Virus record (IMG/VR): IMGVR_UViG_3300034073_000873 | Span: 1 to 31,062 of that record | DNA: 31,062 nucleotides | Direction: 5' to 3' (one strand) | Origin: a virus | In this document: positions 3,374 through 18,433 of the stretch, piece after piece | Numbering within the stretch: the first letter of the stretch is position 1 | Layout of the letters: each line of letters starts with the position of its first letter | The notes under the pieces: model-generated | The model's database searches: none | The model's input: the letters and a program-made list of their open reading frames with translations, nothing else | Told to the model about the DNA's origin: nothing | Translations under genes and position numbers: made by a program

Positions 3374-6300
3374 CTAATTCAGGTTTAATTGTTTTTCTAA
3401 TTCTGCAACCCTTTTTTCTAATCGTGCAATTTTAGCCGTGTGAACTTCACGATATGATAATGTCAAAAATCCGTCTTTTCCCTTTGTAACTGCATATGGC
3501 ATTAATTTTTCGGCATCTTGTGCGAAATATCCCAATTCAATTTTGCCATTCTTTTCGTACAATTTAGCTTCTAAATTTTCAATTCCATCAACAATATGAT
3601 TATGTTCAATTATTTTTTTTAGGCGAAAATCTGATGATTCAAAAAATGCTGTGGCTGTGACTGATGAACTAAATGTTGCTGCACCTGATGTCGCAAGTAA
3701 AAAAGCCGTTACATCTCCCCTATCAATATGAAAGGTTCCATTTGTATTTGCCTGAATATCCCAAAATGTATTTGTTGATGAAACCAATCGCATAATTACA
3801 TTATTTGTCGTGTTTTCAATATTCATTGATTGAACACCACCCGAATTATACAATTTCAAAGCATCAGTAGAACCACCATTTACATATAATTTCCATCCTG
3901 AATCGGTTGTGGTTCCAATTAATACTTTACCATTATTTTGAGATAAAATTACATTTGTTCCATCTCCCCATCCAATAGAAATGTTTTTATATTGACCCGT
4001 TCCATAATCATATGCATTAAGGCCAAATAATGACGATCCGTCCGAATACAAATATGTGGCTGCCCTACTTCCTGAAGGTGCAATACCAATTCCATCTTGA
4101 AATGTTGCTGACATCCACGATCCTAATGCACCATTTGTTCCAACTTGTAATTTATTGTTTTGAGATGTTGTGCCAATTCCTAGATTTCCATACTGATTCA
4201 AATGCATTTGATTTGTACTTGCCACTCCACCCCAATATAATCCACCACCATTTGCATATGTTGCTATGTATCCCGATGAACCAATTGTTTTAATTACAAT
4301 GGAATTTGCAAATTGCATTGCAGCATCATTTGTAATACGAATAACTTCGGTATTATTTGTTTTAAATATAAGAGGATGATTTGAAGCTACATTTATAATT
4401 CCGGCAGGTGACCAATTACCTAAGGCATATGTTGTTGATAAAAACATATTAACAGCCTCGTTACCTGATGAAATGTTTATATCAGCAAAATTATATGTAG
4501 ATGATCCATCTCCTTGCGTAGATAATGTGTTTTGAACTGTAAATCTAGGGAATGCGCTACCACTACCACTATTTGAACTTTTACTAATTCTTAAATTATC
4601 ACTAAATCTGCCTGTACCATTTACATCAAATTTATAACCTGAATCCGTTGTTGTACCAACTAATACATTGCCATTTTGTAAAACCGAAAACACATCTGTT
4701 CCTGCTCCATTACCTCCATTCATTACAGTAAATCTACCACCACTTCCTGTACTAATTCCTGCTGAAACATAACCTGCACGTGATGCGTGAGAATGTCCAT
4801 ACATTACTAATGAGCCACCGTAACCTGCCGATCCGCCACCTGCTTGTAAATTATATGAACCTGCAAATAATTGATCAGAATCAACAATATTATATACTGA
4901 TGATGTGCCGCTTGGAGTAATTAAATACCTTGTTGCTTTTATAGAATTTACAAAAATTGCGGCACCTGTTGTGGCAAATGTTAAAACAGATATATCACTA
5001 CGATCAATTTGAAATGTGCCATCCGTATTTGCTTGTAAATCCCAAAATGCGTTTGTTGTTGATGTGAATCTTGCAATTGCGTTGTTTGTTGAATTATATA
5101 AATTTAAGGACAAAACAGCCGCAGCATTTGATACAGAAATACCTCCGGCTGCACCCGCATTTACTTCTAATTTATATGATGATTCTGTTGTCGTACCTAT
5201 ATGAATTTTTGAATTTAATTCATAAATAATACTATTGCTAATTCCACTTCCTGATGTCCATTTTGGCAAATAGTTTGTTGATCCTGATCCTGTGACTAAT
5301 CCTGATAATGTTGAAACCGATCCATCAGCCATCAAATACTGACTTGATGTGCCCCCCGATTTGATAAATGATGCGGATGTCAATGTTCCTGTATTTATCG
5401 CATTGCCTGATGGTGTTATTTGGAATTTTGTTGCACCGGCTGTTTGATCATAAATATAAAAATACCCTGAATCAACAAATAATGTGTAATCAGGATTATT
5501 GTCTGTATCGGTGAAATATAACTTTGGTGCAATTCCGCTGATTGTCATATCCCCTGTAAATACAGGGTTGGCCGCATCCGCTTTCAATGCAAGTTTTGCC
5601 AACACCGCATTTGAATTTGGATATTCCGTGTCACTAGCCAATAAATTTGACACCATTTTATCCAAACGTTGGTATGTACTTGCGGCCGTTGTAATCAACA
5701 AATAATTGGCCAATGATGCTGATGTCACATATGTGCTTGAATCAATTGATCCGTCTGCTTTCAAAAATTGTGTTGCCGTACCGCCTGATTTTGCGATGGT
5801 TCCCACAATCAAATCACCTGCAATGGTTGTCACACCTGATGAATTAATCACGAAACGTGTTGCACCGGCCGTTTGGTCGTATATTCTAAAAAATCCGCCA
5901 TCTGCCCCGATAAAATAATCAGGGTTTTGATCCGTGTCTGTGAAATACAATTTAGGTTCTGCCCCCGAAATGGTCATGTATCCTGTAAACACCGGATTCA
6001 ATGCATCTGCTTTTAGTGCTAATGCGTTGATTACTGCGTTTGAATTTGGGTATTCTGTTGCACTTGCAAGCAAATTGGACACCATTTTGTCCAATCTTTG
6101 GTATGTTGATGCCGCATCCGTTGTGGTCAAATACGTTGAATTATCGTATGAAATCGTTGTACCTGATGCCTTTACAAACCCGGTGCCATCCAATTGTGCC
6201 TGTGGTGTGTATCCTAATGCAGATGCGATGCTCTTATTTTCCCAATATCCATTTGCCAAATCATAAAATAAACCATGATTATTTGCAGGATCGGCAATGT

Positions 6301-17277: not shown

Positions 17278-17811
17278 CTATTTTTTTAGTCTGCAATTTA
17301 AACCATTTTCAATGAAATGATTGTATGCCATTTGCCTTTGTTCCTCCGATTCAAAAACCACCTCAATGATAAATTGATCCTTTGGATCGGCTGTATTATC
17401 AACAGGCAATTCAAATCCCAATTCCTTATAAACCGGCAAATCAACACCCCATTCTGTCAAATCATCCATCTCCCATTGATTGGCTAACATATCCCAATCC
17501 CATTCCCCAAATCCGGCATTATCAACAATGATAAAACGTTTCTGTTGTTCGGCTGTCAATGCTGATGCTTTAATAATAGGCACACGCTTTAATCCGGCTT
17601 CAATACAAGCACGCAAACGCATATTACCACCCAATACAATCATATTATCATCAACAACGATGGGCCGTAATTGTAGCATCTCAGGGAACTCCTTAATGGA
17701 TTGCACCAATTTTTTGAATTTGTCATCCTTAATCAATCTCGGATTGTTTGGATGTGGAATTACCAATTTGATGTTTACTTCTTCAATCATTTGTTTATCA
17801 TTTTTAGCCAT
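17278..17811 (-). CDS. ParB/Spo0J-like N-terminal domain protein
   Basis: 177 residues from the ATG at 17811 (MAKNDKQMIEEVNIKLVIPH). The longer frame starts at a TTG. Residues about 10-90 form a ParB-N domain: IPHPNNPRLIKDDKFKKLVQ, LRPIVVDDNMIVLGGNMRLR with the box GGNMRLRAC (61-69). There is no C-terminal HTH of partition ParB. Instead comes an acidic Trp-rich region (FGEWDWDMLANQWEMDDLTE) and a last segment FIIEVVFESEEQRQMAYNHF. Such proteins are common beside phage terminases. The ParB-N fold binds CTP or has nuclease activity in relatives. A packaging-linked role is inferred from position only. Confidence 0.85.
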   Translation of the reverse strand: MAKNDKQMIEEVNIKLVIPHPNNPRLIKDDKFKKLVQSIKEFPEMLQLRPIVVDDNMIVLGGNMRLRACIEAGLKRVPIIKASALTAEQQKRFIIVDNAGFGEWDWDMLANQWEMDDLTEWGVDLPVYKELGFELPVDNTADPKDQFIIEVVFESEEQRQMAYNHFIENGLNCRLKK

Positions 17812-17937
17812 TTTTGAATGACAAAGTATTTTATTGTTCAAATATTAACAATAAAAATTGCCGTCTTTCCGTGCTGTCATATTATTTCTATACCCCCCAT
17901 TGAAACAATAAAACATTGAGCATTTCTGCTATTTGCG

Positions 17938-18079
17938 TAGTCAGGACAGGATTCGAACCTGTAATTTGCTAATCGTTGTGAGCCTATATAGCATTCATCT
18001 CACCGCTTCTACGACTGCGTATACCAATGCTTTTTTATTGCTTGCAACCAATAATAGGCATATATTCCGCCACCTGACT
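17938..18079 (-). tRNA. Atypical tRNA-like gene, 142 nt, expanded D and anticodon loops
   Basis: The 5' AGTCAGG (18079-18073) pairs perfectly with the 3' CCTGACT (17945-17939), followed by A as discriminator and no encoded CCA. The T arm is perfect: ACAGG-TTCGAAT-CCTGT. Positions 8-9 are TG and the D stem GCG/CGC has three pairs, as in tRNA-Leu. The D loop starts GGAAT and ends TTGGTATA, matching the Leu consensus but split by about 36 extra bases that fold on themselves (ATGC/GCAT and TTATTG/CAATAA). GTCGT pairs with ACGAT as a possible anticodon stem, but the loop between them is 34 bases and contains a GTGAG/CTCAC hairpin. An alternative loop CTCACAA would give anticodon CAC. The variable region is only about 9 bases. 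Amino acid identity and function are unclear. Confidence 0.55.
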
Positions 18080-18098
18080 ATTTCAATCTGTTTTTTTC

Positions 18099-18116
18099 AT
18101 CAAATATCAATTTGAT
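18099..18116. promoter_or_regulatory. Perfect inverted repeat ATCAAAT-N4-ATTTGAT
   Basis: An 18-bp dyad with 7-bp arms lies 20 bases upstream of the tRNA-like element. On the minus strand the centre reads GATATTTG, one base off TAnnTTTG, so it may be an operator over a promoter. The rest of the 18117-18187 gap shows nothing recognisable. Confidence 0.45.
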
Positions 18117-18187
18117 CATTACCAATATAAACACGCATTCAATGCCTCCAACCCACCATGCCATTGTGACCAAATGATTCTGATCCA

Positions 18188-18433
18188 TTACCCTTTAAAT
18201 TTAGATAGTTCCCGATTAATATACCACAAGGATTTTTCCAAGTCCTGTTTTTTATTACCCTTCTTTTCTGCCCTTAAAATATATTTGATTGCGTTTCCTA
18301 AATTGAAACCTAATTCGAATGATTCGATTACATCAATTGCCTCAATGCCTCCATCAGATGCATAATGTTGCGGATGATCCACCATTTCACGGCTGTCATT
18401 TTCCTTGATGAATTGATCAGGAACATTTCTCAT
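18188..18433 (-). CDS. DUF3310 family protein
   Basis: 81 residues that match the DUF3310 pattern almost end to end: MVDHPQHYASDGGIEAIDVI (17-36), then FNLGNAIKYILRAEKKGNKK and DLEKSLWYINREL. This family is widespread in phages near nucleotide metabolism and replication genes. Its biochemical role is not established. It is the last early gene before the tRNA-like gap and packaging genes, with about 74 bases of AT-rich gap upstream. Confidence 0.85.
   Translation of the reverse strand: MRNVPDQFIKENDSREMVDHPQHYASDGGIEAIDVIESFELGFNLGNAIKYILRAEKKGNKKQDLEKSLWYINRELSKFKG

Follow-up and report, generated by a model that had tools for sequence, protein, structure and literature searches.

A phage element built on a tRNA frame, putative member of an apparently undescribed family of RNAs with exchangeable domains

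The 142-nt element described here is probably an accessory gene of its phage that encodes a member of a family of tRNA-chassis RNAs, in which a tRNA frame would present exchangeable effector domains. Sequence comparison indicates that this family of phage RNAs is large and apparently undescribed: the same tRNA frame was recovered in 340 distinct sequences from 219 collected loci, nearly all of them uncultivated phage contigs, and no description of the family was found in the open-access papers searched. The window, i.e. the whole stretch of DNA that was analysed, is a 31,062-bp IMG/VR virus record, and the element is encoded on its minus strand (18079-17938). It has the AGTCAGG-type frame and the variable middle of the family, and lies at a site common to other members.

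The element in the window and its genomic setting

Read from 5' to 3', the element has the arrangement AGTCAGG-TG-GCGGAA-(38-nt insert)-TGGTATACGC-(54-nt middle)-ACAGG-TTCGAAT-CCTGT-CCTGACT-A-C (Table 1). An earlier note, made from the sequence alone, had reported a perfect acceptor stem, a canonical T arm and a D arm of the tRNA-Leu type, and all three are borne out; the D arm in question, TGGCGGAAT, is present in 198 of 275 family members. An anticodon stem of 5 bp with a 7-nt loop containing U33 is absent, the loop at this place being 34 nt long.

Table 1. Coordinates of the element, its parts and the neighbouring genes in the window
Feature	Position	Strand	Remarks
ParB-like gene, downstream	17278..17841	-	PHROG ParB-like partition protein; start 17811 or 17841
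Discriminator A73 and encoded C74	17937..17938	-	A73 in 300/338 and C74 in 331/338 family members
Whole tRNA-chassis element, acceptor to discriminator A73	17938..18079	-	142 nt; same-site relatives L350, L351
Acceptor stem, 3' strand CCTGACT	17939..17945	-	
T arm ACAGG-TTCGAAT-CCTGT	17946..17962	-	
Variable domain (middle) in place of the anticodon arm	17963..18016	-	54 nt, ending in U48
Middle, outer helix GTCGT/ACGAT	18011-18015 / 17972-17976	-	closes 34-nt loop
Middle, inner helix GTGAG/CTCAC	17999-18003 / 17978-17982	-	within 34-nt loop
D stem, 3' strand CGC	18017..18019	-	pairs with 18068-18070
D-loop insert between A15 and G18G19	18027..18064	-	38 nt; unrelated inserts at same place in other members
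D stem, 5' strand GCG, then G13 A14 A15	18068..18070	-	tRNA-Leu-type D arm
Acceptor stem, 5' strand AGTCAGG	18073..18079	-	7/7 pairs with 17939-17945; commonest acceptor in family
Small gene, upstream	18188..18433	-	PHROG 'nucleotide kinase'

The interior of the element corresponds only in part to its earlier description. The D-loop insert is present, but its proposed autonomous folding is not beyond chance (z = -0.01 against shuffles); likewise, the GTGAG/CTCAC hairpin does lie at the anticodon site, but the middle that contains it does not fold beyond chance either (z = +0.72 against shuffles). With the tRNA core enforced, the element reached -32.6 kcal/mol versus -33.0 +/- 3.6 when the inserts were shuffled, and RNAfold without constraint preferred a different interior fold (-36.6). 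The pairing probabilities in the unconstrained ensemble were ~1 for the acceptor and T arm and ~0 for the interior tRNA-like helices. The acceptor and T arms are nevertheless beyond chance, because hundreds of other contigs have this frame as well. The frame of the window copy is thus certain, while its interior fold is not established. Since both inserts fold no better than shuffles and no relative of the middle was found among the 340 family members, structure in this exact copy is proposed by analogy.

The ARAGORN check suggested earlier gave nothing: the program recognized no tRNA in the element, either with default settings or with introns allowed, and lower thresholds with introns and tmRNA mode yielded only spurious low-score calls. 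The Rfam tRNA model (RF00005) scored 15.9 bits in the window (gathering threshold 29), and many relatives reached 31-49 bits with large insertions. A 60-aa ORF (..QDRIRTCN..) runs antisense to the element (window 17933-18115, plus strand) and looks like a spurious tRNA-antisense translation.

The element lies in a 346-nt gap (17842-18187), the longest between minus-strand ORFs of the window, in agreement with the gene-poor position noted previously. Also encoded in the window are a terminase, portal, major head and tape-measure proteins, together with an annealing protein of the Erf-like type. The proposed comparison of the same gap in relatives gave a divided answer, as pairing of the acceptor, D and T arms is conserved, whereas the interior differs. 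L350 has the flanks of the window (97.6% identity over 164 nt on one side) around an element of 84 nt. In L351, the same flanks enclose two elements, the first of which carries a different D-loop insert. Both loci have acceptor and T arm in common with the window element, but not its middle. Further versions with differing interiors were found nearby in the close relatives L044, L050, L066 and L084. At the same site, the element is missing from L046, L048, L051, L052, L069, L070, L073 and L074, and the gene in the window is therefore accessory. The spacer between the two elements of L351 (about 6125-6248) includes a T-arm-like stretch, GTCGAGTTCAAATC, perhaps a relic of a third element.

In a search for a dedicated partner gene, every neighbour family was confined to 25 or fewer of the 219 loci, and the commonest of these families were genes of relatives of the window phage. 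The longest antisense matches of middles to their own contigs showed no excess (10.27 versus 10.06 nt). The genomic context thus lends no support to a particular function.

The tRNA frame is kept across a large phage RNA family

Two search patterns were used, an exact 16-mer covering the acceptor and D arm and a second one in which the acceptor was left free, and each matched at least 120 contigs, viral ones in the former case. Family members are mostly about 70-145 nt long and have a 7-bp acceptor stem and a 5-bp T arm with a TTCRANY loop. AGTCAGG/CCTGACT is the prevailing acceptor, but there are others with full compensation, AGTCCTG/CAGGACT and TACCGGG/CCCGGTA among them. Membership of the later set required an AGTCAGG-like acceptor, U8 and at least four of five T-stem pairs, so the frequencies of that acceptor type and of U8 are not evidence; the T stem was perfect in 328 of the 338 members of this preselected set. 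The tertiary core of tRNA is present too, with A14 in 320/338, G18G19 in 91% and an R15-Y48 pair, in addition to the U8 imposed by the search. In particular, the Levitt pair 15-48 was A-U in 294 members, A-C in 11, G-C in 8 and G-U in one of the 338, a covariation (Fisher p = 3e-10, an optimistic value because related members are not independent) which supports the L-shape of tRNA beyond mere hairpins.

Within a subfamily of 12 sequences with a common middle, 97.8% of the cells were paired and eight pairs had changed on both sides, compared with 2.0 in shuffles (0/500), whereas slid structures gave less than 40% pairing. Taken together, these comparisons show that selection maintains the frame, consisting of acceptor stem, D arm, T arm and Levitt pair, as an RNA with a tRNA fold.

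The highest copy numbers in whole-record searches were 12 (in 27.5 kb), 11 (in 62 kb) and 10 (in 94 kb). In virus records all copies were on one strand, and the reversed-pattern control gave 0 matches. Chassis elements often adjoin canonical tRNAs; the arrays L379 and L380 have many of these with ordinary, diverse acceptors, whereas the surrounding chassis RNAs have one acceptor and one T stem. N73-C74 is the usual end of both kinds of gene, suggesting that their 3' ends are processed in the same way. A complete-looking tRNA-Lys(UUU) with the AGTCAGG acceptor and ACAGG T stem of the family (L177:13032-13101) may connect decoding tRNAs with chassis RNAs. GOLLD RNA (Rfam RF02032) was detected on two contigs with chassis elements and tRNAs (L158:1477-1884, 299 bits, and L383:1866-2283, 262 bits), and its linker region might house chassis RNAs.

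No family member was found in INPHARED (50,697 GenBank phages) or in plasmids, and 394 of 395 sampled Bacteroidota genomes had none, the single positive being a MAG contig already known. Among GTDB contigs, only five MAG contigs had members; two of the five are labelled Chitinophagaceae, an uncertain host assignment.

Variable domains are replaced between near-identical phages

The middle is hypervariable, yet structured within clusters, as shown by the comparison of predicted pairs. Clustering of the middles gave 249 groups, of which 196 are singletons, and the consensus structures of 35 clusters contained 45 doubly compensated cells versus 11.9 +/- 3.6 when alignment columns were shuffled. 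The proportion of double changes among the variable cells (0.42 versus 0.17 shuffled) is the fairer measure, because column shuffling also destroys neighbour effects. The folding z-scores of middles were only modestly shifted (-0.71 versus -0.37), and a closing helix directly after the D stem was not enriched family-wide (0.195 versus 0.180). A second T-arm-like hairpin was observed inside some middles (L151:484, L379:2089-2177 and L381:500-598; e.g. CCCGTTCGAGTCGGG), reminiscent of fragments captured from other tRNAs.

Phages with 90-100% identical flanks often have unrelated middles at the same site, and the middle therefore behaves as a cassette. The second elements of L215 (position 4669) and L343 (position 4593) have identical 150-nt flanks and follow an identical first element, whereas their middles are unrelated and differ in length. 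Unrelated middles make up the majority of the same-site pairs across contigs (n = 40). In turn, of 176 pairs with a middle in common, 157 are set in non-homologous flanks. The D-loop inserts represent a second site, between A15 and G18: module A was combined with three different middles (L356, L357, L359) and module B with three other ones (L151, L261, L383), while some of these middles were also found without a D insert. Taken together, the comparisons of middles, inserts and flanks show that D-loop inserts recombine independently, that domains and insertion sites are uncoupled, and that domains have been replaced between near-identical phages.

Constant ends around a variable centre, a site occupied or empty among close relatives and shared middles in unrelated flanks would also be expected of a mobile DNA element of the MITE type, in which the resemblance of the terminal inverted repeats to an acceptor stem would be incidental. 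This reading is improbable: the conservation obeys tRNA rules in the T arm, T loop, A14, R15-Y48 and C74, compensatory changes included, and the centre changes at one site while both flanks and the arms stay. It is quite improbable that the swapped middles are assembly chimeras formed at the repeated constant arms. All sequences are metagenomic and the constant arms of about 25 nt are repeated within genomes, but middles recur with compensatory changes in independent metagenomes, and the idiosyncratic arm variant TTCTGACT is preserved across the L215/L343 swap. Repeats of about 25 nt are usually resolved by assemblers.

The view that the window element is a tRNA-Leu in decay, or a tRNA-Leu pseudogene, within a gene-poor gap agrees with the negative ARAGORN result, the Rfam score below threshold and the chance-level folding of the inserts, the last of which leaves the earlier argument from paired inserts unsupported by the window alone. 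The doubt about simple decay was justified on other grounds, since the frame, with compensated stems and the covarying Levitt pair, is kept in hundreds of relatives; the acceptor and T arm are moreover perfect and one phage has up to 12 copies. Decay is very unlikely and was rejected for the compensatory changes.

The location of the inserts in tRNA loops and the existence of tRNAs with anticodon-loop introns speak for a decoding tRNA that introns interrupt at these two loops, the intron option of the earlier note. This fits poorly and is scarcely tenable: removal of the middle leaves no canonical anticodon arm, because the sequence beside the D stem or T arm provides none, and such arms occur at a near-chance rate across the family (6/338 versus 3.2 expected). 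The intron search of ARAGORN was negative, no known ribozyme of Rfam matched in the loci scanned, and the inserts are, as already noted before, below the size of group I or II introns. Finally, a tmRNA-like RNA, with a short reading frame replacing the anticodon arm, is hardly credible, for although the acceptor and T arm are kept and the extra domain is positioned as in tmRNA, open frames are not enriched in the middles (0.587 versus 0.632 shuffled), 5% of the parsed middles are no longer than 23 nt, a true D stem is kept and the tmRNA search of ARAGORN was negative.

A possible role and comparison with known systems

Returning to the tRNA-chassis reading, we lean towards the broader view that the tRNA frame is a general-purpose chassis for hundreds of swappable RNA effector domains, with two independent docking sites, the anticodon position and the D loop, and exchange via the conserved arms, and that it forms a modular arsenal, probably in an arms race with host defence. 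The RNA would be co-transcribed with adjacent genes or tRNAs. Its two ends would be matured by host RNase P and by the 3' processing of tRNAs, including completion of CCA, and the tRNA elbow would make it stable, the frame presenting the exchangeable effector. It may be charged with leucine, given the Leu-type D arm and A73 and the general view that bacterial LeuRS does not recognize the anticodon, and it would have no decoding ability. The probable route of exchange would be homologous recombination within the short constant arms, mediated for instance by an annealing protein of the Erf-like type of the window. As to what the domains do, our leading guess, a speculative one, is a decoy or inhibitor role against host defence factors. 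Such a role would account for the hypervariability, multiplicity and rapid swapping of the domains and would be a modified version of the mimic or decoy option of the earlier note. An abundant phage RNA family would have been missed or miscalled by a standard tRNA finder, and no member of it was found in a large collection of isolated phages. Its hypervariable swapped domains resemble specificity determinants, so that each module offers a hypothesis about an RNA capable of binding or blocking some host factor.

Like canonical phage tRNA-Leu, the chassis RNAs have the D arm TGGCGGAAT..GG..GACGC, the T arm, the elbow contacts, A73 and an encoded C74, the last as in neighbouring phage tRNAs; they differ from it in lacking an anticodon arm and a class II variable arm, in having D-loop inserts and in the one acceptor and T stem common to many chassis RNAs of one phage. 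The tRNA-like structures of plant RNA viruses, which are 3' ends of genomic RNA, also mimic tRNA ends, whereas the chassis RNAs are separate genes in dsDNA phages. With tmRNA (SsrA) they share a tRNA-like end and a large extra domain replacing the anticodon arm, but they have a D stem and no reading-frame signal, and are multi-copy, phage-borne and equipped with many unrelated domains. GOLLD and ROOL are likewise structured RNAs of phages whose function is unknown, and they lie close to tRNA islands (PMC12286853), a setting similar to that of the chassis RNAs and, for GOLLD, shared with them on two contigs here; they are, however, large and conserved in architecture, and the tRNA frame is not their conserved part. 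Finally, in the engineered tRNA scaffold, a tRNA frame carries and protects a foreign RNA (PMC3753655). The chassis RNAs, too, would carry a foreign RNA on a protective tRNA frame, differing from the scaffold in being natural and evolving and in having a second, D-loop site and cassette exchange, and the chassis frame would thus be its natural counterpart.
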